Positions 11,671 through 27,747 of a stretch of DNA of 64,000 nt are shown here, piece after piece. Within the stretch, counting starts at the first letter, position 1. Each line of letters starts with the position of its first letter. The DNA lies in the NCBI RefSeq assembly GCF_003435815.1, contig NZ_QTUV01000006.1:62001-126000 (forward strand), given 5' to 3'. This DNA is from Dorea sp. AM10-31. GTDB lineage: Bacteria; Bacillota; Clostridia; Lachnospirales; Lachnospiraceae. The position numbers were made by a program, and so were the translations under genes. The notes under the pieces are model-generated. The model was not told the DNA's origin and searched no databases. It saw only the letters and a program-made list of their open reading frames with translations.

Positions 11671-11751
11671 TTGAGTGTAACCGTATGGTTGGTTCAGGTA
11701 GTGCAGCTTCCTTTTTTGTGTGTGCGTAGAGGGCTGATTGGTGTTGTCTTG
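11671..11751 (-). repeat. Inverted, internally deleted copy of mglC coding and downstream sequence
   Basis: 11671-11709 is the exact reverse complement of 18512-18550, inside mglC. 11703-11751 matches, with two small indels, the reverse complement of 18158-18206, downstream of mglC. The two parts join at GCAGCTT, a 7-base word present at both source positions, so the scar looks like a deletion between short homologies in a former mglC copy of opposite orientation. Confidence 0.8.
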
Positions 11752-11801
11752 GGGGCCAGCGCCTCCCCCGGGCAAAATTATCATTAACTATAAAAACTAT
11801 G

Positions 11802-11866: not shown

Positions 11867-13468
11867 ATGGAGCGTTATAAAGTACTTCTGGTAGATGATG
11901 AAGTGGAAGTTATTGATATTATGGAGCAAAAGATTCATTGGAATGATCTTGGATTCAAGGTTGTGGGCAGTGCAACGAACGGCGTGAAAGCATTAGAGCT
12001 TGTGGAGAAGCTCCAGCCGGACGTTGTGCTTACGGACATTAAGATGCCTTACATGAACGGGTTGCAGCTTGCGAGAAGACTGAACGAGGATTATCCGAAT
12101 ATTTACATTATGATTTGTACCGGTTTCGATGAATTTGAGTATGCAAAGGAAGCGGTGCATTTAGAAATCAAAGAATATATGTTGAAGCCGATCAACTCGA
12201 CAGAACTGTCTGCAAGTCTTGAGGACTTGAAAGAGACACTGGATCGAGAGCGAGAAGAAAAATTGAATGTAAAGAAATTAAATAATTACTTTCAGGAGGC
12301 ACTGCCGAAGCTGCAGTCGAATTTTCTTATTTCGCTTATCGAAGGAAGAGTTGGTGAAGAGGATTATGACCGGTTTTTACAGGCGTATCAGCTTGATATG
12401 AAAGGACCGCATTTTTGCTGTGTGATCTTTCATACTTCTGCAAATCATGTGCCGGATGGAATGGATCCGTTGCTTCTTTCCATGTCCGTAGAGCGCGAGA
12501 TCAAAGACCGGCTCGTAGAAGAGTGGGAATGCAAGGAATTTATTTACATGGGCAATACGCTTCTTATTTTGGAACTTGATTCAAAGGAGAAGATGGCACA
12601 GGTGACAGATGCCTGCGACAGATTCTGCCGTTGGGCTTATCGAATTATGGGAGCAGTCGTTACGGCAGGAATCGGAACGGTGTGTGACAGCCTTCGTGAC
12701 ATCAGCATTTCTTATGAAGGGGCGAGAGATGCCATTTCTTATCGTGTGCTGTATGGTACAAAGCGCGCCATCAACATCGGAGAGATTGTCCCAAAAGAGC
12801 AGAAGCAGACAGCGCAGCCGGAAGAGATCAGCATGCAGGAGCTTCTTCGCGCGATCCGTATCGGTGATCCGGAAGAGATTAAGGAGATGGCACACAAGGA
12901 AATTGAGAAAATTTATAAAAATACAGAGACAATCAGCCAGCATAATCTGGCAACATTAGAGATTGTCAGCAGATTTGTTCGCTTCTGTACAAATAACTCG
13001 CTTGATTTCAATGAGATTTCCGGATATTCGCAAAATATTTACGAAAAAGTATCACAGATGGATGAAAGCTTGCTTACAAACTGGACGGTCAATATGTCTA
13101 TGGCAATCAGCGACTGTCTTATGAATGCCAGAAATAATACATCGAAAAGACTGATCGTAGACGCCCAGAACATTGTGAAAGACCGATATATGGAGGCCGA
13201 CATTTCGCTCGATGAAGTGTGTGCACAGCTTGGTGTGTCGAACTCTTACTTTTCATCTATTTTCAAAAAAGAAGTAGGAAAGTCTTTTATTTCTTATCTG
13301 ACAGATTACCGAATGGATATCGCAGAGGACCTGGTTCTTAACACAGATGAGAAGAGTTACACGATCGCAGAGAAGGTAGGGTACCTGGATGCGAACTATT
13401 TCAGTTACGTATTTAAGAAGAAATTTGGTGTTTCACCTTCCAAATACCGGGCATCTGCGAAAAAATAA
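11867..13468 (+). CDS. yesN: YesN-type response regulator (receiver + AraC DNA-binding domain)
   Basis: 533 residues from ATG 11867 with AAAGGGG upstream. The receiver domain (1-125) has DDE at 10-12, the phosphoacceptor Asp in VVLTDIKMPYMNG (near 57) and Lys in YMLKPINS (near 107). A ~280-residue linker follows, as usual for YesN proteins, and the C-terminal ~100 residues hold two AraC helix-turn-helix units (SLDEVCAQLGVSNSYFSSIF and the second ending KKKFGVSPSKYR). It is followed 24 bases later by its sensor kinase and then two sugar-binding proteins, so it most likely activates carbohydrate-uptake genes, the facing mglBAC operon being the obvious candidate. The symbol follows the family, not a proven orthologue. 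Confidence 0.93.
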   Translation: MERYKVLLVDDEVEVIDIMEQKIHWNDLGFKVVGSATNGVKALELVEKLQPDVVLTDIKMPYMNGLQLARRLNEDYPNIYIMICTGFDEFEYAKEAVHLEIKEYMLKPINSTELSASLEDLKETLDREREEKLNVKKLNNYFQEALPKLQSNFLISLIEGRVGEEDYDRFLQAYQLDMKGPHFCCVIFHTSANHVPDGMDPLLLSMSVEREIKDRLVEEWECKEFIYMGNTLLILELDSKEKMAQVTDACDRFCRWAYRIMGAVVTAGIGTVCDSLRDISISYEGARDAISYRVLYGTKRAINIGEIVPKEQKQTAQPEEISMQELLRAIRIGDPEEIKEMAHKEIEKIYKNTETISQHNLATLEIVSRFVRFCTNNSLDFNEISGYSQNIYEKVSQMDESLLTNWTVNMSMAISDCLMNARNNTSKRLIVDAQNIVKDRYMEADISLDEVCAQLGVSNSYFSSIFKKEVGKSFISYLTDYRMDIAEDLVLNTDEKSYTIAEKVGYLDANYFSYVFKKKFGVSPSKYRASAKK

Positions 13469-13492: not shown

Positions 13493-15331
13493 GTGAAAAA
13501 CAGATTGAGAAAATTTTCAAAAGAAAATATAACATTCAACATCCAGTCGATCATCATGTCGGTGCTTATGGCGATCACTGTTGTGACGATCGTTGTTATG
13601 GGATTTTTGCTCTATCACCGTTTCAAGCTCGCCATTGATCGAATGGCGGTTGCGAATACAGAATCGAACGTAGAGAGTATGGTGGACCGTGTAAATGCGG
13701 ACCTTTTGGATATGCGTCAGATTTTCAATGCGGCGAACTACAATATCGTTCAGGAATTTGACATTTCCAGCCGTGAATTTACCGAGCAGTTCAGTCTTCT
13801 GTACGAAACGAATTCGGACAAGGTGCAGAGCGTGGCGCTGTATGGAAGTGATGGGAAACTTATCAGTTCTGAGCCGGTATCGGTGGAGAAGAAAATAGAC
13901 GTAACAAGGCAGGACTGGTACCGGAATGCGGAGGACGCAATTGAAAATATCCATTTCTCCGTTCCGCATATCCAAAATCTTTTTGCGGATGGTTCTTACC
14001 GTTTCCATCGAGTTGTTTCGCTGAGCCGCTATGTGGATGTCAACGACGGCGATAAGCCGCGAAGTGGTGTCCTCTTAGTGGATATGAAATATTCGGTTAT
14101 TGAGGATGTGTTAAAACAGATCAATGACTCTTCGGAAGGCATTTACTATTATCTTATCAGCCGCGATGGAGAAATTATTTACCATCCGAGAAGAGCAGAG
14201 ATGGACCGAGGGCTTTTTAACGAAAAGAGTGTCGGAACAGCCAAATACGAAGATGGAACGTATTCCATCAATGCGGATGGCCATAGGGAAAGCATTGTTG
14301 TCGGAAGTATTGCATATACCGGATGGAAACTTGTCGGTGTTGTGCCGGAGAGTGTGCAGACTGCAAGCATCAATCGATTCCGTTACTATGTATTTACGAC
14401 GATCACAATTCTTCTGATGATGCTCCTTTATGGAAATAGATTAGTTTCCCGAAAGATTTCCAAACCGATCCGCCAGCTGGAAGAGTCCGTAAAAGACCAT
14501 GAGGCCGGTGGAAAACCGGACATTTACATTGGAGGTTCTACGGAGATCCGACATTTGGGATATTCCGTTCAGAAGTCTTACGAGCAGATTGAGACTTTGA
14601 TGGAAGAGATCATCCGCCAGCAGAATGAGCGAAGAAAGAGCGAGCTGGATGCATTGCAGAGCCAGATCAATCCACATTTTCTTTATAATACGCTGGAGTC
14701 GATCACGTGGATGATCGAGGCATACAAAAATGAAGGTGCTGTCGTTATGATTTCAGAGCTTGCGAAACTTTTGCGTGTCAGTTTGTCCCGGGGAAAGACA
14801 ATTATTTCTATCAAGGATGAATTGCAGCACAGCCGAAGTTATATGAATATACAGCTTGTGCGCTATAAAGAGCGTTTTAAGATGGAATTTCAGATTGATG
14901 AAGAGATTGAAAAATATTGCATTGTAAAATTAGTCATTCAGCCGATCTTGGAAAATGCAATTTACTATGGCGTTGGAAATATGGATGAGGACGATGACGG
15001 CAAGATCATCGTGCGCGGTGAGAAGAAAGGCGATGACATTTACATTTCCATTGAGGATAATGGAATGGGCATGCGCGAAGAAGTGTTGGAAAATATTTTG
15101 ACAAATAATAATAAAGTTCCAAAGCACGGTTCCGGCGTAGGTGTTATTAATGTACATTCGAGAATCAAGCTTATGTTCGGTGAGCAGTATGGACTGGAAG
15201 TGTACAGCGAACCGGATGAGGGAACGAAAGTTGTAATCCACATTCCGGCGATTTTGCATACGCCTGAGAATGCGGAAATGCTGGAAATGCAAAAATACAC
15301 GCAGGGGAGGAATTTAGATGAAAAAAAATAA
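13493..15331 (+). CDS. yesM: YesM-type sensor histidine kinase
   Basis: 612 residues from GTG 13493. Membrane helix at ~18-42, extracellular Cache-like sensor region (about 45-295, including NFADGSYRFH-like and YYYLISRDGEIIYHP motifs), second helix at ~298-318, HAMP-like linker, then the His_kinase domain with SQINPHFLYNTLESI (phosphoacceptor His near 398) and an HATPase domain (VIQPILENAIYYGVGN; IEDNGMGM; HGSGVGVINVHSRIKLMFG). Its gene end overlaps the next gene by 14 bases. Family knowledge says YesM kinases sense extracytoplasmic ligands, often through a binding protein; the two binding proteins next in the operon fit that. Confidence 0.94.
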   Translation: MKNRLRKFSKENITFNIQSIIMSVLMAITVVTIVVMGFLLYHRFKLAIDRMAVANTESNVESMVDRVNADLLDMRQIFNAANYNIVQEFDISSREFTEQFSLLYETNSDKVQSVALYGSDGKLISSEPVSVEKKIDVTRQDWYRNAEDAIENIHFSVPHIQNLFADGSYRFHRVVSLSRYVDVNDGDKPRSGVLLVDMKYSVIEDVLKQINDSSEGIYYYLISRDGEIIYHPRRAEMDRGLFNEKSVGTAKYEDGTYSINADGHRESIVVGSIAYTGWKLVGVVPESVQTASINRFRYYVFTTITILLMMLLYGNRLVSRKISKPIRQLEESVKDHEAGGKPDIYIGGSTEIRHLGYSVQKSYEQIETLMEEIIRQQNERRKSELDALQSQINPHFLYNTLESITWMIEAYKNEGAVVMISELAKLLRVSLSRGKTIISIKDELQHSRSYMNIQLVRYKERFKMEFQIDEEIEKYCIVKLVIQPILENAIYYGVGNMDEDDDGKIIVRGEKKGDDIYISIEDNGMGMREEVLENILTNNNKVPKHGSGVGVINVHSRIKLMFGEQYGLEVYSEPDEGTKVVIHIPAILHTPENAEMLEMQKYTQGRNLDEKK

Positions 15332-16331
15332 AATAACCTTCCTCGTGCTGGAGACGATTTTGCTTGTGCTGGCATTGTTTTTCGTGTTGAAGATTTTCGA
15401 TAAAAATGTGCCGGAGAAGCGAGTGGCAGTCATTCTCTCCGAATCGGGTGACAACCGCTGGGATTCGCTTATAAAAGGCCTGAAGCAGGCGGCGGATATC
15501 AATGGTCTTCATATGATCATCTGCAATACGGATAAGATTGACAGTACGGAGACGGAAAAAGAAATCATAAATGAACAGAAAAATAATGATATCGATGCAT
15601 TTATCATTTGCCCGGCGCCGGGTGCGGACACCGAAAAAATGATCAAAAAGCAGTGCTCCGGCATCCCGTATATTCTTATTATGGATGAATTTTATAACGG
15701 AACGCAGTTGATTAATGGGCAATCTTCAGACAGGGCGTCTCAGAATAAAGCGACTTCGGAATCGGCGAAAAAATCGCTTGGTGCAGTGATCGGGCCGGAT
15801 TATTATAAAATCGGTACAACATTAGGAAAGCAGATTGGCAAAAAGAAGAAGACGGTAGGAATTGTAGCCGACTGGCGAGAGTCTGCGGCAAATCGTCAGA
15901 TGATCAAAGGTTTGAAAGACGTGCTTAAAGATACCGAAAATGAAGTCAGCTGGTGCTATTACCGTCAAAAAGGACAGGACATCTGTGAAAGTGTAACCCA
16001 GAAAAGTGATGTGGACGCCCTAGTCGTGCTGGATTCGAAAGCGTTGGAAGAGCTTGGCGAGAAATCGGAGCAAGGCACATACAGCAAGGCAGAAATATAT
16101 GGAATTGGCAGCAGTGAAAAGGCAATCGTCTTGCTTGATGACGGAGTGCTCAACGGCCTTATCGTTCCGGATACCTATTCCGTCGGCTACAAGAGCGTAG
16201 AAGAGATTGCGCAGAAACTGAACCGCAGATTTTATCGAATCAAAGGTCATGAGACAGATATAAAGATATTTAGCAAACCAATATTTTCTTTAGATGACAA
16301 TATGGAAAGGTTCATGTATTCCTATGAGTAA
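15318..16331 (+). CDS. Membrane-anchored sugar-binding (Peripla_BP_4) protein
   Basis: 337 residues; ATG 15318 with AGGGGAGG just upstream, overlapping the yesM end. A single N-terminal helix (LVLETILLVLALFFVLKIF) lacks a lipobox and probably anchors the protein outside the membrane. The rest has the two-lobe periplasmic-binding fold: RVAVILSESGDNRWDSLIKG, IDAFIICPAP, KKTVGIVADWRESAANRQMI, VDALVVLDS and LNGLIVPDTY mark the expected strands and helices. The strict glucose/galactose contact set of MglB is not conserved, so the ligand is uncertain. Co-expression with YesMN suggests a receptor that presents ligand to the kinase (inference). Confidence 0.8.
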   Translation: MKKNKITFLVLETILLVLALFFVLKIFDKNVPEKRVAVILSESGDNRWDSLIKGLKQAADINGLHMIICNTDKIDSTETEKEIINEQKNNDIDAFIICPAPGADTEKMIKKQCSGIPYILIMDEFYNGTQLINGQSSDRASQNKATSESAKKSLGAVIGPDYYKIGTTLGKQIGKKKKTVGIVADWRESAANRQMIKGLKDVLKDTENEVSWCYYRQKGQDICESVTQKSDVDALVVLDSKALEELGEKSEQGTYSKAEIYGIGSSEKAIVLLDDGVLNGLIVPDTYSVGYKSVEEIAQKLNRRFYRIKGHETDIKIFSKPIFSLDDNMERFMYSYE

Positions 16332-17373
16332 AAGAAATGAAAGAAACAGAAAGTATAAACGTGTGATCGCAGTTACATTAATGCTCACCCTTCTCGCATC
16401 TGGATGTGGAAAGGAAAAGCCGAAGTCCAATAATATTCTTCGAGTTGGTGTCGTAACGTACACCCAGGATGATCCATTTATCAATGCTATGACAGATAAA
16501 TTGAAAGAGAATTTCAAGGAAATGGAATCCGAAGATTTTAAGATTATCGTGTCTGTGAAAAATGGAGATGATAACCAGCAGGATCAAAATGAGATCGTAG
16601 AAGAAATGATCGACGCTGGATGTGACGTGCTTTGTGTAAATCTCGTTGACAGAACAGCGCCATCCCGCATTATAAGGATGGCGAAACAAGAAAGTATACC
16701 GATCATTTTCTTTAACCGTGAGCCGGTAAAAGAAGACATTATGCAGTGGGAGAAACTATATTATGTCGGATGTGACGCAGAGCAGTCTGGCGTAATGCAA
16801 GGTGAAATTGTTGCAAACTACCTTAAAAATCATCCGGAGGTGGATGTGAACAAAGATGGCAAGATACAGTATGTTCTTTTAGAAGGTGAGGCCGGTCACC
16901 AGGATGCCATTAGCCGAACGGACTATGCAGTAAAGACACTGATCGAACACGATGTGAAATTAGAAAAATTAAGCTATCAGTTTGCAGACTGGAACCGTGG
17001 GCAGGCGGAAAATCGAATGACCCGTCTCATCCAGCAATATGGCAAAGAAATCGAACTTGTTATTTCAAATAACGACGAGATGGCATTGGGCGCTGTGGAG
17101 GCTTGCAGAAAGGCCGGATACAGAGGAAATGATTGGCCGGTGATTTTCGGAATTGACGGGCTGGAGGATGCTCTGAATGCGATCAAGAACGGCCAGATGC
17201 AAGGAACTGTCTACAACGACAATGAAGACCAGGCAAGTGAGCTTGCGAAGTTGTCTGTGGAAGTATTTCGCGGGGACAACAAGTATCGAAGCCAGCTGAC
17301 GGACGGCAGATATTATGTCTCTGAATACCGTCAGGTAGATGAGGAGAATGTAGATGAGTTCTTGGAAAAATAG
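16324..17373 (+). CDS. MglB-like glucose/galactose-binding lipoprotein, canonical order
   Basis: 349 residues from ATG 16324, which overlaps the previous stop; the frame runs 30 bases further upstream but the lipoprotein signal (LTLLASGCGKE, Cys near 28) fits this start. The mature part follows canonical MglB: TYTQDDPFINAM (sugar Asp and stacking Phe), CVNLVDRTA, IIFFNREP (Asn), YYVGCDAEQSGVMQGEIV, GHQDAISR (His, Asp, Arg), FADWNRGQ (stacking Trp), VISNNDE (Asn), FGIDGL (Asp) and TVYNDNEDQ (Asn). All ten contacts known for E. coli MglB appear present. It belongs to the YesMN operon rather than to mglBAC, so it may serve sensing, uptake or both. Confidence 0.9.
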   Translation: MSKRNERNRKYKRVIAVTLMLTLLASGCGKEKPKSNNILRVGVVTYTQDDPFINAMTDKLKENFKEMESEDFKIIVSVKNGDDNQQDQNEIVEEMIDAGCDVLCVNLVDRTAPSRIIRMAKQESIPIIFFNREPVKEDIMQWEKLYYVGCDAEQSGVMQGEIVANYLKNHPEVDVNKDGKIQYVLLEGEAGHQDAISRTDYAVKTLIEHDVKLEKLSYQFADWNRGQAENRMTRLIQQYGKEIELVISNNDEMALGAVEACRKAGYRGNDWPVIFGIDGLEDALNAIKNGQMQGTVYNDNEDQASELAKLSVEVFRGDNKYRSQLTDGRYYVSEYRQVDEENVDEFLEK

Positions 17374-17438: not shown

Positions 17439-17485
17439 GATAGATAGCGTGAGATAGCGTGAGAAGAGAGCGAAAGGATAGAAAA

Positions 17486-18076
17486 ATGGACAATACATGG
17501 GTAGCACAGTTTTATGAGGAAACCGATCCGGTGAAGCGAATGGAAATGCTGGAGGCGCATGGAGAAGACGCAGCCGGTGAGGAAGCGAGTGAGGAAGCAA
17601 AAAGAAATGCATGCAGGAAAGAATTGTGGGTTGTGCGCTATGGAAAACGCAGACCAAGAAAAGATGAATTTGTCGGAGGCTTTGTGGAATTAAAAGGCAT
17701 GGCAGAGGCAACGACAATCGATATCGGTGGCATGCGCAGAAAGCAGGCTGCAAAAATCCTTTCCACATTGGGGGTATCCGTAGTAAGACTACAGGATGAA
17801 CTGTACAAAGAAGTACTTCTGGCGGAACTTCAGAATGCATTCAAGCGTTACTTTGAAGTGAGCCGCGGAGGCAGAGGATTTACTTCTCTCGTATTTGGAA
17901 TGGGACAGCTTTCAGACGAAGGCGTTGCAAAGAAGCTTGCAGAGCAGGTCAGTATTATTGCTTTTAAGGCACCGCGGATGCTTCGTATGGAGAAAGAATT
18001 CGCACTGCTTAAGGAAGCGGCACTTCTTGCTTTTAGAGAGGAATATCCGAATAGAGAGCATTTTTTGAATAAGTAG
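17486..18076 (+). CDS. Conserved hypothetical protein (possibly DUF6553 family)
   Basis: 196 residues from ATG 17486, chosen for the GAAAGG about 9 bases upstream; an in-frame GTG at 17459 lies inside a repetitive leader. No signal peptide or membrane helix. The N-terminal third is acidic and Ala/Glu-rich (AGEEASEEAKRNA), followed by a basic motif ELWVVRYGKRRPRKDEFVGG and a helical C-terminus (FTSLVFGMGQLSDEG, MEKEFALLKEAALLAF). I recall such proteins as short, uncharacterised Clostridia families, but the DUF number is from memory. It is the last gene before a terminator and may be co-transcribed with the sensor/binding-protein operon. Confidence 0.7.
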   Translation: MDNTWVAQFYEETDPVKRMEMLEAHGEDAAGEEASEEAKRNACRKELWVVRYGKRRPRKDEFVGGFVELKGMAEATTIDIGGMRRKQAAKILSTLGVSVVRLQDELYKEVLLAELQNAFKRYFEVSRGGRGFTSLVFGMGQLSDEGVAKKLAEQVSIIAFKAPRMLRMEKEFALLKEAALLAFREEYPNREHFLNK

Positions 18077-18126: not shown

Positions 18127-18157
18127 ATGTGTGATTGTGGGTTGTTACTGGTGTCCG

Positions 18158-18206
18158 CAAGACAACACCAATCAGCCCTCTACGCACACAAAAAAAAGGA
18201 AGCTGC
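18158..18206. repeat. Counterpart of the inverted scar at 11703-11751
   Basis: This stretch downstream of mglC (CAAGACAACACCAATCAGCC and onward into the terminator arm) recurs in opposite orientation at 11703-11751. With mglC bases 18512-18550 it forms the source of the scar. Confidence 0.8.
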
Positions 18207-18278: not shown

Positions 18279-19931
18279 TTATTTCTTCTGGACATATTTC
18301 AGACAGTCAAGTGTTACGGCTGCAAGGATGATAATACCTTCGAAGATGAACTGAAGGTTTGTATCAATACCAAGGATTGTCAGAGAGTATGTAAGAGATG
18401 TGAAGATAAGTACACCAGTTACAACTCCGGAAATCTTACCGATACCACCAGTAAATGATACACCACCAACTACGCAGGCTGCAATGGCATCCATATCCCA
18501 TCCTTGTCCGTAAGCTGCACTACCTGAACCAACCATACGGTTACACTCAAGCCATGAACCAAATCCATAAAGGATACCAGCAAGGATAAATGCTCCCATT
18601 GTTACTTTGAATACGGAAATACCAGAAACTGCTGCTGCTTCCGGGTTTCCACCTACAGCGTAGAGGTTTTTACCAAATGTTGTTTTGTTCCAGATGAACC
18701 ATACGATTGCAACTGCAGCTACAGCCCAAAGTACGATTGTCGGGAATCTTCCAGCCTGTGGAATGAACATTTTCGGAATCTCTGAATCAATCGCACCGAA
18801 GGAAACACCTTTTGTTGCGTATGTTACAAGACCGAAGATGATAAGCATGTTCGCCATTGTAGAAATGAACGGATGCATCTTAAATCTTGCCATGAAGAAT
18901 CCAGCGATCATAGAGAATACAGTTGTCAGGATTACACAAACGCCTAATGCTAATAAAGCTTTCGGTACCGGAGCCATCTTTGAGAAGTCAAATACATGTC
19001 CGAATACTGTACCTGTGTTGATTCCGTTATGCATGATGATTGTAGATGTTACCATACCCATACCAACCATACGTCCTACGGAAAGGTCTGTACCTGTTAA
19101 GAGGATCAGTCCTGCAACACCAAGTGCTAAGAACATACGAGGTGAAGCCTGCTGTAAAATATTCAAAATGTTAGTTGCTGTAAATAACTGTGTATTCTTT
19201 ACGATTGGTGTAATGATACACAGAGCGATGAAGATTAAAATGATTACAATGTAAAGACCATTCTTGTATAAGAACTGTGCTACATTGAAAGAATATTTAT
19301 AGTTTTCAATCTTCTGTGCATACTGCTGAGAAAGTGTAAATTCAGACATTCTCAGAAGGTCGATCAAATGGAATTTGTGCATATATGCATCATGTTTTCT
19401 GTCTTTGATTTCCTGTACTCTTGACTCGTGAGTCATTTCCGCATCAAAGAGGTGATTCTTTAATACATATTTCTCAGCTTTAATCTCTTCAGAGTCTTTC
19501 AGAGCTGCAACTTTTTTCTTGTGCTCTTCCTGAAGTTTCATTTTAACCTTAGCGTATCTGCTCTCTTCGTCCTTCATCTCAGTTTCGCAGCTCTTAGCTA
19601 CGATATTATAATAGTCGTTATTATAATGTTTAGCGAGATATCCTTCAGCGTCAGCAATCAGCTTGTTGATCGTTGCTTTGTTTTTATTTTCAACAGCAAC
19701 TGCTTTTTCAAGCTCTTTCTTGCTGTTAGCAATAATCTTAGAACTCTCTTCTTTGCTTAAGTTTTTATCTTCTTTTGCGATTGCGATCTGGTTCTTTAAA
19801 GTATTCACTTTATCTGTACCTTCGATACGCAATTCGTCAATCTGTTTCTGAATCTTACCTACATATTCATCAATCGGTTGGAGAAGTTTCGCTTCTTCTT
19901 CAGCCGAGATAATAAAGCTCTTTTCTGCCAT
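18279..19931 (-). CDS. mglC: Galactose-type ABC transporter permease with long coiled-coil N-terminus
   Basis: 550 residues; family members are usually ~330-340. Residues ~225-550 are a typical BPD_transp_2 sugar permease (GVAGLILLTGTDLSVGRMVG, FISTMANMLIIFGL, GNPEAAAVSGI, DAIAACVVGGVSFTGGIGKI), with 8-10 membrane helices. Residues 1-~220 are soluble, Glu/Lys-rich and helical (KIQKQIDELRIEGTDKVNTL; SKKELEKAVAVENK; KMKLQEEHKKKVAALKDSE), so a cytoplasmic coiled coil precedes the first membrane helix. The start ATG at 19931 has GAGAGGAG upstream. It is third in the minus-strand mglBAC operon, 18 bases after mglA. The extension could recruit MglA, a scaffold or a regulator; its role is unknown to me. 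Confidence 0.9.
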   Translation of the reverse strand: MAEKSFIISAEEEAKLLQPIDEYVGKIQKQIDELRIEGTDKVNTLKNQIAIAKEDKNLSKEESSKIIANSKKELEKAVAVENKNKATINKLIADAEGYLAKHYNNDYYNIVAKSCETEMKDEESRYAKVKMKLQEEHKKKVAALKDSEEIKAEKYVLKNHLFDAEMTHESRVQEIKDRKHDAYMHKFHLIDLLRMSEFTLSQQYAQKIENYKYSFNVAQFLYKNGLYIVIILIFIALCIITPIVKNTQLFTATNILNILQQASPRMFLALGVAGLILLTGTDLSVGRMVGMGMVTSTIIMHNGINTGTVFGHVFDFSKMAPVPKALLALGVCVILTTVFSMIAGFFMARFKMHPFISTMANMLIIFGLVTYATKGVSFGAIDSEIPKMFIPQAGRFPTIVLWAVAAVAIVWFIWNKTTFGKNLYAVGGNPEAAAVSGISVFKVTMGAFILAGILYGFGSWLECNRMVGSGSAAYGQGWDMDAIAACVVGGVSFTGGIGKISGVVTGVLIFTSLTYSLTILGIDTNLQFIFEGIIILAAVTLDCLKYVQKK

Positions 19932-19949: not shown

Positions 19950-21458
19950 TTACAAATACTTCGCACTGAGTCTCAATAATTCTTCCTGATCTGTTTCCTT
20001 TGTATTAACAATACCTGCGAGACGTCCGTTGGACATAACTCCGATACGGTTTGTAATACCAAGGATCTCCGGCATCTCTGAGGAAACAACGATAATCGTC
20101 TTTCCCTGTTTTGCCATGTTAATGATCAGTTCGTAAATTTCATATTTTGCACCAACGTCGATACCTCTGGTCGGGTCATCCATCATGAATACCTGTGGTG
20201 AACGTTCTAGCCATTTTCCGAAGATCGCTTTCTGCTGGTTTCCTCCGGAAAGGTTTGAGATCATATCATCCGGTCCCATACATTTTGTATGCATAACCTT
20301 GATTTCCTCAGCAGTTGCACGTACCATTCTGTCATGTGATAATGCAATACCTTTTTTGTAATGATTCATGTTCGCGATCGTAGTGTTAAATGTAATATCG
20401 CCTTTCAGGAACAATCCGTTGGCCTTTCTTTCCTCTGTGATCAGAGCAAATCCGTGGTCCATTGCATCCTTAGGTGATGTAAAGTTCATAACTTTACCGT
20501 TGTATAATACATTTCCTTCTGCTCTTGTACGTATTCCGAAAATAGTTTCCAGAAGTTCTGTACGTCCGGCTCCAACCAGACCATAGAATCCAAAGATTTC
20601 TCCTTTTTTGATATCAAAGGAAATATTCTGAAGTTTTGGTGCATACTTTGTTGAAAGATTTTGTACAGAGAAAATGGTTTCTCCCGGTTCATTGTCAACA
20701 GGCGGGAATCTGTTATCCAGAGAACGACCAACCATGGCTGCAATCAATTCGTTCATATCTGTGTCCTTGCTCTCTTTTGTCATAACAAGGCTACCATCTC
20801 GCAGTACGGAGATCTCATCACAGATATTGAAAATTTCGTCCATCTTATGTGAAATATAGATCAGGGAAATTCCCTGTGCTTTCAGCTGACGCATCATTTT
20901 GAAAAGTTTTTCAACCTCTGGTGCTGTCAGGGATGATGTAGGCTCATCCAAAACGATTACCTTAGAATTATAAGAAATTGCTTTTGCAATCTCACACATC
21001 TGTCTCTGAGATACAGACATCTTCTTCATAGGCTGTGTCAGGTTTGCTGTGATTCCAAGCTTTCTGAACAACTGTGCTGTTTCTTTTTTCATTCTTCCCT
21101 CGTCGATAACTCCAAGTGAATTCTTTGGATATCGACCAAGGAACATATTGTCAATAACGCTTCTTTCAAGACACTGGTTCAACTCCTGATGTACCATCGC
21201 TACACCGTTCTCCAGTGCATCCTTCGGTCCTGAGAAGTTTACTTCTTTGCCATCTAATATTATTGTCCCCTCATCTTTCTGATAAGTTCCAAAGAGACAT
21301 TTCATCATCGTCGATTTTCCGGCACCGTTTTCACCCATAAGTCCCATAATGGTTCCAGGTTTCACATTCATGTTGATACCCTTCAGTACTTTATTTCTAC
21401 CGAATGATTTACTCATGCCATTAATCGATAAGATGTATTTATTCTTATCTTCTGTCAT
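19950..21458 (-). CDS. mglA: Galactose-type ABC transporter ATP-binding protein (two ATPase domains)
   Basis: 502 residues, the normal length for MglA/RbsA-type fused ATPases. First domain: Walker A GENGAGKST, signature MSVSQRQMCEIAKA, Walker B VIVLDEPTSSL. Second domain: degenerate Walker A GLVGAGRTE, signature NLSGGNQQKAIFGKWL, Walker B VFMMDDPTRGIDVG. It energises uptake through MglC. The ATG at 21458 has AAGGAAG upstream (minus strand). It sits between mglB and mglC, with 88 bases to mglB. Nothing unusual was seen, in contrast to its two partners. Confidence 0.96.
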   Translation of the reverse strand: MTEDKNKYILSINGMSKSFGRNKVLKGINMNVKPGTIMGLMGENGAGKSTMMKCLFGTYQKDEGTIILDGKEVNFSGPKDALENGVAMVHQELNQCLERSVIDNMFLGRYPKNSLGVIDEGRMKKETAQLFRKLGITANLTQPMKKMSVSQRQMCEIAKAISYNSKVIVLDEPTSSLTAPEVEKLFKMMRQLKAQGISLIYISHKMDEIFNICDEISVLRDGSLVMTKESKDTDMNELIAAMVGRSLDNRFPPVDNEPGETIFSVQNLSTKYAPKLQNISFDIKKGEIFGFYGLVGAGRTELLETIFGIRTRAEGNVLYNGKVMNFTSPKDAMDHGFALITEERKANGLFLKGDITFNTTIANMNHYKKGIALSHDRMVRATAEEIKVMHTKCMGPDDMISNLSGGNQQKAIFGKWLERSPQVFMMDDPTRGIDVGAKYEIYELIINMAKQGKTIIVVSSEMPEILGITNRIGVMSNGRLAGIVNTKETDQEELLRLSAKYL

Positions 21459-21546: not shown

Positions 21547-22818
21547 TTATTTGAGAAGTTCTGTGTATGAAGATGCATTGTCTGTTTTAACCATGTTAAT
21601 TGCAAATGCGTCATACTCGTCTGGGTTTCCAAGACGGTTTGTGATGTTAGACTCTGTCTGTCCATCTCCACCGATGTAGTCAACTTTCAGATTGAGAAGG
21701 TCATCGTAGTTCTCAAGAAGCGGCTGATATGTTGAGCTTAAGAAGTTATCTGAAGCATTGTAGATGTTAAGCCATACTTTCTTTTCTGGGCTCTTCTTAG
21801 CATCAAGCTGGTTAGCAACTTTTTTGTATACTACTGTTGAATCTGTAAAGTCTTTATAGTTATCAGCTGTTACAGCAATGTTTAATGCGTAGTAAGATCT
21901 CTCTTCTTCGCTATATCTGTAATCTTCGCCTTCTTTCAGACAGTTACCAGCATCATCTTTTGTTCCGATACCTGTGTTAATGTCTACTCCGTCAAGAGCG
22001 TTACGAAGAACTCTCAGTGTCAGGTACGCCTGAACGTCTGCATGCTGAGAAATTGTTCCGCCGTATCCTTCTGCGATAGCTGCTACAGCGTCACTGTTTG
22101 CATCGTATCCGAATGTAGGTACTTTGTTTTTCTTAGCCCATGCGTTGAACATTGACATTCCCATACCATCGTTGTTAGAAACAACTACGTCGATCTTATC
22201 TCCGAAAGAAGCTTTCCATGTTCCGATAGCGTTACCTGCTGTAGCGGCATCCCATGTAGCTCCTGCTGCATTCTTCATTTCCTGAGAAGCAAGCTCACGA
22301 ACTGTGTATTTCTTTCCATTAACTTCAAGTGTTGCGTCTTTAACAATTTTAGATTTTCCATCTACGTTTGTTCCAGCTGGTTTAGAGTTGATTTCTTTCT
22401 TCTCTTCAATACCTGTTCCGAGTGCTTTACGAACTCCACGTGTACGAGCGATTGAATCGTTGTGTCCGATATCACCGATTGCAAGAACATATCCGATAAC
22501 TCCGTCACCGTTTCTATCGATCTTGTCGATGTTAGCTTTGATGTAATCAAGAACCATCTGTCCCTGAAGTTCAGCTCCCTGGTTAGCATCGAAACCTACA
22601 TAGTAAGTATTTTTGTTGAAGCTAAGAGCATCTTTGTCAAGCTCTCCTGTTGAGCTGTTAGATGGCTGACGGTTAAACCAGCAAAGTGGTTTGTCCTTGT
22701 TCGCTACCTTAGTGTCAGATGAGTCTGAAGATCCTGAAGATCCTGAAGATCCACATCCTGCCAATGATAATGCGAGTATTACTGCCATCATTGATGCAAC
22801 TACTTTTCTTTTTTTCAT
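21547..22818 (-). CDS. mglB: Galactose-binding lipoprotein of the Mgl transporter, circularly permuted
   Basis: 423 residues with a lipoprotein signal (ALSLAGCGSSG, Cys22) and a Ser/Gly linker. The mature sequence starts where the middle of MglB should be: PLCWFNRQPS (Asn49), TYYVGFDANQGAELQGQMV, GHNDSIAR (His119, Asp121, Arg125), ATWDAATA (Trp189), VVSNNDG (Asn215), FGYDANS (Asp239), TISQHADVQ. After the normal C-terminus and a short linker (near 328-345) come the canonical first ~80 residues: VWLNIYNASDNF (Asp357, Phe359) through AFAINMVKTDN, ending at LLK. A ~40-residue insert (about 138-182) is also present. MglB normally delivers glucose or galactose to MglAC. Strong RBS GGGAGG precedes the ATG at 22818. 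Confidence 0.9.
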   Translation of the reverse strand: MKKRKVVASMMAVILALSLAGCGSSGSSGSSDSSDTKVANKDKPLCWFNRQPSNSSTGELDKDALSFNKNTYYVGFDANQGAELQGQMVLDYIKANIDKIDRNGDGVIGYVLAIGDIGHNDSIARTRGVRKALGTGIEEKKEINSKPAGTNVDGKSKIVKDATLEVNGKKYTVRELASQEMKNAAGATWDAATAGNAIGTWKASFGDKIDVVVSNNDGMGMSMFNAWAKKNKVPTFGYDANSDAVAAIAEGYGGTISQHADVQAYLTLRVLRNALDGVDINTGIGTKDDAGNCLKEGEDYRYSEEERSYYALNIAVTADNYKDFTDSTVVYKKVANQLDAKKSPEKKVWLNIYNASDNFLSSTYQPLLENYDDLLNLKVDYIGGDGQTESNITNRLGNPDEYDAFAINMVKTDNASSYTELLK

Positions 22819-24064: not shown

Positions 24065-25447
<1,383 letters not shown>

Positions 25448-25592
25448 AATGGATAGAGATGTCGCTGGTACTCCACAATGCACTTGAAGTGAGAATGTGT
25501 CAGGCTACATTTTCTATGCGGCAATTTCCACAAAAACGACAAGCCAATTTAGTAAACATTTCATGAAAATAGTTTTCTTTAAGTAAAAGTTT

Positions 25593-25632
25593 GCGTAAAA
25601 ATATTGACTAAATATTTTTACGCTGATATATT
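25593..25632 (+). promoter_or_regulatory. Promoter with overlapping operator for the GH42 gene
   Basis: TTGACT (25604-25609), a 17-base spacer and TATATT (25627-25632) form a good sigma-A promoter. GCGTAAAAATA (25593-25603) and TATTTTTACGC (25613-25623) are a perfect 11-base inverted repeat enclosing the -35 box, a likely LacI-family operator. Further out, ATTTAGTAAA (25547-25556) and its exact complement TTTACTAAAT (25712-25721) flank the promoter. Confidence 0.85.
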
Positions 25633-25734
25633 CATTTCACAAGATACGAAAAATAAACGCAATAAAACAAAAGAAAATGCGTAAAAACGTATGGAAAAGC
25701 GAAAGCAAAACTTTACTAAATAAGGAGTAGAGGG

Positions 25735-25790
25735 ATGGAGAAACTTATAAAATGATTCGTGACGAACTTCGTAAGAGAAAGGAACAGTAA
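25735..25790 (+). other. Two tiny leader frames before the GH42 gene
   Basis: AAGGAG (25722-25727) is ideally placed for ATG 25735, which encodes only MEKLIK; a second frame (ATG 25752, MIRDELRKRKEQ) overlaps it and ends one base before the GH42 ATG. They may couple translation or be remnants of a lost upstream gene. Confidence 0.35.
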
Positions 25791-25791
25791 T

Positions 25792-27747
25792 ATGTGGCGT
25801 GGAGTTGATTATTATCCGGAACAGTGGGATGAGGCTTTTTTAGAAGAAGATTTGGAAAATATCTGTGAGCTTGGATGCAATGTGATCCGTATCGCAGAGT
25901 TCGCATGGCATCTGATGGAAAAAACAGAAGGAAATTATGATTTTTCCTTTTTTGACCGTGTAATTGAAAAGGCAAAAGAAAAAGGTCTGAAGGTGATCAT
26001 GGGAACTCCGACAGCGACCATTCCGGCATGGCTTGTGAAAAAGCATCCGGATATCCTGTCAGAGTTTGAAGACGGAACCGTCCGCACTTTTGGTGGACGC
26101 CATGTATATTGCTTTAACAGCGATGTGATGTATGAGTACTCAGAGAAGATCATCCGCGCACAGGCTGAGCATTATAAAAATGAAGATGCGATCGTGGCAT
26201 GGCAGATTGACAATGAGCTGGGACATGAAGACAGTGACATCTGCTACTGTCCGAAATGCCGCTGCGCATTTCAGGGATTCCTTGAGCAGAAATTCGAGGG
26301 AAATATTGATAAGTTGAACGAAATTTACGGAACCACATTCTGGTCACAGGAATACAACGGATTTGATGAGATCCCACTTCCATCCAAGACCATAACCACA
26401 CACAATCCGGCACTTCGTCTGGACTGGGAAAGATTCCGCAGCGAAAGCATTGTAAAATTTGCAAACTTCCAGACAGCGCTTCTTAAGGAAATCATTCCAG
26501 ATGCGGTTGTGATGCATGACTTCCCGGGCGGAGGACTTGGAAAGCACGTAGATTATTCAGAAGTTGCAAAGAATCTGGATGTGGTAGCTTATAACAATTA
26601 CCCGGTATGGGGTGGGCAGAAAGAGCCGCTTCCTGCAAATGAAATTGCATTTGGACTGGATTATATCCGTGGGCTCAAACGGGAAAACTTCTGGATCACA
26701 GAAGCGATCATGGGAGCACAGGGACATGATGTAACCGGATTTGCTCCACGCCCGAATCAGGCAAAGCTCTGGTCTTATCAGAGTATGGCGAGAGGTTGCG
26801 AATCGCTGATGTATTTCCGATACAGAGGTGCAACAAAAGGGGCAGAGCAGTTCTGTTATGGAATCTTGGATGCAGATAATGTTAAACGTAGAAAGTTTCA
26901 CGAAGTACAGGGATTCTTTAATGAGATTAGGAATTACGAAAAAGAACTGAGCGCACCGGTTAAAAGTGAAGTTGCAATCGTATATGATTATGATTCGCTT
27001 GCAGCATTCCGTATCCAGAGACAAAGTTTCCTTCTCGACTGCGAAGCAGAGATGAAGAAGTTCCATAAAGTATTCTTTGATGCAAATGTTCCGGTGGATG
27101 TGATTTCGGCGGGAAGTACTCTTTCTGGTTACAAGATCGTGATTCTTCCACAGATGATCATTGCGAAACCGGATTTCCAGAAGCAGGTGAAAGAATTTAC
27201 CGAGAACGGCGGAACGCTGGTTCTGACTTTCCGTGATTTTGTAAAAGATGAAAATAACAATCTGTTGTTTAAAAAGGTACTTCCGGTTGACTTTGATGAG
27301 TTTGCGGGAATCTATGTGACAGAGACGGAAAGTCTTCAGGAAGGACAGGAATTCCCGCTTGCAGGCGAAGAAGATTTCAGTTGTACACAGGGAGAGGGAG
27401 GAATTTTCCGTGACCTGCTCAGTGTGACAGATGCAGAAGTGCTGTTCCGCTACAATGATGTATTCTTCAAGGACTACGCAGCAGTGACAAAGAAGAAGCA
27501 GAAAGATGGATATGTATATTACCTTGGATGCGGATTGGATGAAACTATTTTAAAACAGCTTCTCAAGAAAATGGCAGACGAACAGGGAATCATATCTGAG
27601 CATTCAACTGATGGCGTTGAGATCGTATACCGAGAGAGCGAAGACAGAAAGATTAAGATCACCATGAACCACAATGCATTCGAGGTGCAAAATGCAGGTG
27701 TGACATTGGCGCCGTTTGAATGCAAGGTGGAAGAAGTTCGGAAATAA
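25792..27747 (+). CDS. GH42 beta-galactosidase
   Basis: 651 residues from ATG 25792 (AGAAAGGAAC upstream); the frame extends to a GTG at 25759 but that segment overlaps leader frames. The GH42 catalytic barrel is clear: WQIDNELGH supplies the acid/base Glu142 and FWITEAIMG the nucleophile Glu304. Cys107 and the CYCPKC cluster (151, 153, 156) match the metal-binding cysteines known in this family. A trimerisation domain (about 390-590) and a small beta-sandwich end follow. There is no signal peptide, so it hydrolyses internalised beta-galactosides in the cytoplasm. With the LacI regulator and the Mgl transporter it makes a galactoside-use locus. Confidence 0.95.
   Translation: MWRGVDYYPEQWDEAFLEEDLENICELGCNVIRIAEFAWHLMEKTEGNYDFSFFDRVIEKAKEKGLKVIMGTPTATIPAWLVKKHPDILSEFEDGTVRTFGGRHVYCFNSDVMYEYSEKIIRAQAEHYKNEDAIVAWQIDNELGHEDSDICYCPKCRCAFQGFLEQKFEGNIDKLNEIYGTTFWSQEYNGFDEIPLPSKTITTHNPALRLDWERFRSESIVKFANFQTALLKEIIPDAVVMHDFPGGGLGKHVDYSEVAKNLDVVAYNNYPVWGGQKEPLPANEIAFGLDYIRGLKRENFWITEAIMGAQGHDVTGFAPRPNQAKLWSYQSMARGCESLMYFRYRGATKGAEQFCYGILDADNVKRRKFHEVQGFFNEIRNYEKELSAPVKSEVAIVYDYDSLAAFRIQRQSFLLDCEAEMKKFHKVFFDANVPVDVISAGSTLSGYKIVILPQMIIAKPDFQKQVKEFTENGGTLVLTFRDFVKDENNNLLFKKVLPVDFDEFAGIYVTETESLQEGQEFPLAGEEDFSCTQGEGGIFRDLLSVTDAEVLFRYNDVFFKDYAAVTKKKQKDGYVYYLGCGLDETILKQLLKKMADEQGIISEHSTDGVEIVYRESEDRKIKITMNHNAFEVQNAGVTLAPFECKVEEVRK

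Follow-up and report, generated by a model that had tools for sequence, protein, structure and literature searches.

A 64,000-nucleotide stretch of the Dorea sp. AM10-31 genome (contig NZ_QTUV01000006.1; hereafter the window) encodes an MglB-type lipoprotein whose polypeptide is circularly permuted, with canonical residues 1 to ~81 placed after the canonical C terminus. We put at about 95% the probability that this protein serves an mgl-type (CUT2) ATP-binding cassette (ABC) importer as its membrane-anchored, sugar-binding part and belongs to the Type Ic/Cluster Bc MglB family. What we observe directly is the order itself, the match to that family in sequence and fold, the sugar contacts, the mglB–mglA–mglC arrangement and the kinship of the moved segment. 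The gene is laid out as follows.

21547–22818 (−): gene for the permuted MglB-type lipoprotein, 423 amino acids (PDB sequence matches, Pfam, profile comparison, structure alignments)
22756–22818 (−): signal peptide, residues 1–21, then lipobox Cys22 (lipobox pattern, LAGC)
21844–22701 (−): residues 40–325, equivalent to the part of canonical MglB that starts near mature residue 82 and ends at the C terminus (profile and alignment)
21793–21843 (−): linker of ~17 residues (326–342) from the old C terminus to the old N terminus (alignment)
21550–21792 (−): residues 343–423, equivalent to canonical residues 1 to ~81 (PF18610 at 345–415, profile, alignment)

The top three sequence matches in the PDB are the Treponema pallidum MglB-2 entries 5jx2, 6bgc and 6bgd, all colinear with residues 40–423 (5jx2: 303.7 bits, E = 2.3e-89); among the remaining 14 distinct chains listed, 11 canonical MglB-type chains match in two separate stretches and 3 match in one. 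PF13407 (Peripla_BP_4) lies at residues 68–277, ahead of PF18610 (Peripla_BP_7), and both score above their cut-offs, PF18610 with 140.8 bits against a curated 36.8. This pattern of matches and this succession of domains establish that the order is permuted. A sequence-only reading of the window had proposed the permutation and had placed the break near canonical residue 85–90; the former is borne out by the PDB matches, Pfam order, profile and alignment, and the latter was close, the alignment putting the break at about the junction of mature residues 81 and 82. It was also right about a normal lipoprotein signal, which ends at Cys22, and about the lipoprotein encoded at 16324 as an internal control of ordinary order, since that protein matches canonical MglB in one stretch. 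All 80 loci from other genomes that we compared (the best 80 of 384 encoding a relative) match most of the permuted query, the shortest span being 38–423.

Nine residues (N49, H119, D121, R125, W189, N216, D239, D357 and F359) are identical to sugar contacts of E. coli MglB, and Q258 replaces the tenth, N256. The pocket is thus kept much as the sequence-only reading had claimed, except that its Asn215 should be Asn216. The nine identical contacts and the single Asn-to-Gln exchange recur in all 44 permuted rows of our comparisons, namely the window, 38 of the 80 loci, L087, L089, L111, P0098 and P0109. TpMglB-2 has the same Gln for Asn256 and an Asn in place of Asp14, and its Ca2+ loop is without the Gln142 side chain and has Asp for Glu205 (PMC4990184). 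Both loop departures are found in the window protein, as G109 and D210. The canonical-order protein at 16324–17373 (+) keeps all ten contacts. For the predicted pocket, the permutation would be neutral or nearly so.

The permuted form is already known. A 2016 crystal structure of T. pallidum MglB-2 reports circular permutation and D-glucose binding, and the form was named Type Ic/Cluster Bc, with two clades, one in spirochaetes and one in mostly Gram-positive gut organisms (PMC4990184). PF18610, the Pfam family of the moved segment, is among the profiles of a 2022 solute-binding protein survey (PMC9602780). The earlier statement that no description of such an MglB existed is contradicted by that structure, the three PDB entries and PF18610, and we reject the notion of an undescribed form. 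A trait of Type Ic/Cluster Bc, N-lobe strands 1–3 of the Type I fold at the C terminus, is present in the window protein. In that family the chain also passes between the lobes a fourth time at the linker; in the window protein the alignment gives a linker of ~17 residues (326–342). The window protein resembles TpMglB-2 (Tp0684; 5JX2, 6BGC, 6BGD) in permuted order, fold, the Asn256-to-Gln exchange, an altered Ca2+ loop and neighbouring mglA and mglC genes, and differs in identity (about 40–43% in structure alignments), in its Gram-positive host and at the position of E. coli Asp14, which is Asp357 in the window protein and Asn311 in TpMglB-2. Entries 6BGC and 6BGD are reportedly treated in a later paper. 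With canonical MglB, or glucose/galactose-binding protein, of E. coli and Salmonella (1GLG, 1GCA, 2FVY) the window protein shares 9 of 10 contacts, both lobes and the Asp-Asn-Asp core of the Ca2+ loop, but its N-lobe strands 1–3 stand at the C terminus and colinearity extends over only ~220 residues.

The moved segment could instead stem from another gene whose product came to fill the N-lobe role by convergence; the 2016 paper kept this alternative because the moved part is only 13% identical to E. coli MglB (PMC4990184); in our profile alignment its identity to canonical MglB is 20%. Against this, a profile built from the final 88 residues of the 44 permuted rows (the program kept 19) matched a profile of 25 canonical-order MglB proteins with P = 7.6e-7 and a score of 36.5, in register with residues 24–104 of the E. 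coli MglB precursor, compared with 19.4 for a single profile made from six further sugar-binding proteins, a weak control as it mixes diverse proteins, and 1.6 for the reversed MglB profile. A segment-only tree (85 columns, rotated sequences) likewise joined permuted and canonical MglB against the six outgroups, with a Shimodaira–Hasegawa-like approximate likelihood ratio test (SH-aLRT) value of 96. On this profile and this tree we reject a foreign gene as the source, which we consider very improbable. A tree built from 18 permuted, 25 canonical and 6 outgroup rows places the permuted proteins, one of them from Treponema, in a single clade (100/100) that sits within MglB (100/97 against the outgroups); as the tree alignments were made on rotated sequences, they inform on affinity and not on order. 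Neither the segment tree nor the body tree singles out one canonical group as nearest to the permuted clade. Two long database proteins (P0098 and P0109) carry internal repeats of body parts, not of the canonical N terminus. The profile comparison points to mglB as the source of the moved part.

The 2016 paper proposed that permutation adapts the protein to membrane anchoring by moving the anchored N terminus away from the sugar contacts (PMC4990184), and 36 of the 44 permuted rows have a lipobox by the strict pattern. A lipobox is, however, also present in 17 of 20 canonical rows of the same bacterial family (L091–L110) and in the 16324 protein. Since lipoboxes are common in canonical-order MglB, anchoring does not require permutation; we reject it as a sufficient reason, and as an explanation it seems unlikely. 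A misassembly or a recent accident in a single genome might be suspected from a nearby inversion relative to L007 that marks the neighbourhood as rearranged. This account has next to no probability: the permuted order at 80 of 80 loci in other genomes excludes an assembly error, and a Treponema saccharophilum plasmid protein and the crystal structures refute it as well.

Several observations weigh against our assignment of the protein and the origin we propose for it. The NCBIfam MglB equivalog NF011924 gives the permuted protein 87.6 bits in two stretches, far below its cut-off of 420, and the canonical-order 16324 protein also falls short (244.6 bits). The predicted structure is of middling confidence, and it is through the 5jx2 match that the C-terminal segment is shown to complete the N-lobe, the aligners used being sequential and not topology-independent against E. 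coli MglB. In the body-only tree, permuted and canonical MglB are set apart from the outgroups with an SH-aLRT value of 93, which falls short of the tool's star, and one long-branched canonical row (can_L092) stands beside the permuted clade at 86. Finally, the three canonical rows without a lipobox by pattern (L094, L107 and L108) lie more than 1.2 kb from mglA.

On the assignment to the Type Ic/Cluster Bc family, the protein would be lipidated at Cys22, would close around glucose or galactose as other MglB proteins do and would deliver the bound sugar to MglC and MglA. A single rearrangement inside mglB, in an ancestor common to the entire clade, may have produced the permutation.

The transporter genes follow mglB on the same strand, and the order mglB–mglA–mglC is found in 71 of 71 usable loci.

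19950–21458 (−): mglA, ATP-binding subunit, 502 amino acids (top NCBIfam family MglA at 667.8 bits, short of the curated 828)
18279–19931 (−): mglC, permease, 550 amino acids (top NCBIfam family MglC on residues 216–550 at 285.1 bits, short of its cut-off, 386; PF02653)
19287–19931 (−): N-terminal helical extension of MglC, residues 1–215 (no Pfam family over its cut-off)

The first strongly hydrophobic stretch of the window MglC begins at residue 217. Its extension accompanies the permuted MglB closely. Among 250 genomes sampled from the family of the window, PF18610 occurs in 27, and the extension in 28: all 27 with PF18610 and one other (G022). It is whole in 24 of the 27 and partial in three, running to the end of a contig in G233, lying at a contig start in G274 and falling into two pieces near a contig start in G007; extension and PF18610 share a contig in 25 of 27. 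Searching with the whole MglC gave 26 matches of at least 639 bits (66–85% identity), one in each PF18610 genome except G274; the next match scored 235 bits, and all 55 lower rows start at query residue 200 or later. Across the phylum, the two MglC matches that carry the extension come from PF18610 genomes, and the remaining 25 start at residue 201 or later; in two genomes of that search, the open frames that hold canonical MglC matches are 890 (G651) and 847 (G610) amino acids long and may be ATPase–permease fusions. The canonical mgl operons examined showed no extension: at 20 fetched loci, drawn from 45 genomes with the short MglC type only, the top MglB relative is of canonical order and MglC has 328–423 residues, and the MglC proteins of E. 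coli and Fusobacterium are also short.

The T. saccharophilum MglC, of 562 residues, has an extension that is 26% identical to that of the window (53/205), against 56% for the core (187/333). A hidden Markov model (HMM) of the Firmicutes extension finds it with 32.7 bits (E = 3.9e-9), where the highest of 500 shuffles reached 4.0. Three results detract from this pairing: the HMM score includes a bias correction of 22.7, a BLAST search with the extension at E ≤ 1e-4 misses the Treponema copy, and the G022 match comes without PF18610. We count the last as chance because of its E value of 5.2e-4, its 29% identity and its six internal stops. The MglC model shows a helical extension (predicted local distance difference test 79–90 over residues 11–200) and a poor membrane core (predicted template modelling score 0.47). 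A Foldseek search with the model returned nothing at E ≤ 0.001 (top hit BtuC, 2qi9_A, 5.6e-3), and the extension alone gave weak matches to Pfam Rac1 (21.4 bits, cut-off 25) and to an IFT20 chain (E = 0.014). A literature search judged on titles and abstract beginnings found no description of the extension, and a search for tp0686 yielded PMC4990184, where 'mglc' never occurs in the part of the text available; as far as these searches show, the extension is new.

No signal or membrane stretch lies ahead of the extension, which should therefore be in the cytoplasm. Because MglB acts across the membrane from it, the pairing is most simply explained by a single inherited operon lineage, not by contact. 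Permuted MglB and the ~210-residue cytoplasmic helical (coiled-coil) MglC domain might be two derived marks of a separate Firmicutes/Treponema mgl lineage, with the domain a functional module, for example for docking or regulation, of a CUT2 sub-type not yet described; we offer this tentatively and give it rather less than an even chance.

Beyond mglC, the window holds a sensor cluster that includes the canonical-order protein.

11867–13468 (+): response regulator (sequence reading; an L089 homologue adjoining mglC is annotated 'response regulator'; relatives)
13493–15331 (+): putative histidine kinase (name from sequence reading; relatives)
15318–16331 (+): further PF13407 substrate-binding protein (Pfam)
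16324–17373 (+): canonical-order MglB-like lipoprotein (one-stretch match to canonical MglB; NCBIfam; contact mapping)

Relatives of the response regulator are found in 54 and of the kinase in 47 of the 71 usable loci. Of the 27 PF18610 genomes, 20 have a canonical-order protein related to that at 16324 (E ≤ 1e-30): 15 place it 4.4–4.8 kb beyond mglC on the same strand, two (G076 and G178) just ahead of mglB, and three (G021, G231 and G278) on another contig. The 16324 lipoprotein probably serves the adjacent two-component system, and a permuted protein for transport with a canonical one beside a two-component system would be a common arrangement; in T. pallidum, canonical-order MglB-1 lies outside the transporter operon (PMC4990184). 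The sensor block of the window (~11.7–18.2 kb) is inverted relative to L007, whose DNA is 94–97% identical. A 52-base inverted repeat (11703–11754 and 18155–18206, 96%) and a 39-base piece of mglC (11671–11709), an inverted copy of 18512–18550, sit at the ends in the manner of a scar. Since the canonical-order protein is on the mglC strand in 15 related genomes, the order in the window looks derived. A DUF6553 gene (PF20190, 234.3 bits; 17459–18076, +) lies between the canonical-order lipoprotein and mglC.

PF18610 is further present in 6 of 61 relatives and in 2 of 398 genomes across the phylum, one of the two being the nearest genome itself. By record title, the 80 permuted loci include Anaerobutyricum, Roseburia, Blautia and Holdemanella. 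Of 23 matching plasmid records, two cover at least 80% of the query, from Agathobacter rectalis (L089), where an IS91-family transposase and an integrase gene lie nearby, and from T. saccharophilum (L087), whose protein matches along residues 4–423; Treponema is represented here by that one plasmid record and the PDB alignments. Plasmids could be one way in which the permuted gene is transferred. The nearest virus record (G002, 80.8 kb) has 33% of the sampled 31-letter words of the window in common, which suggests that some of this stretch may be mobile; a search of that record, run without a positive control, gave no match to the permuted MglB. At 24386–27747 (+), close to the mgl operon and named from sequence reading, lie a LacI-type regulator-like open reading frame and a large one resembling family 42 beta-galactosidase, which would fit galactose use.

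An independent reading of DNA confirms that a textbook binding protein occurs naturally in circularly permuted form; no new kind of system is revealed. The sequence evidence for an mglB origin of the moved part adds to the 2016 paper, and the constant pairing with an extended MglC provides a testable clue to why this lineage of operons stands apart.
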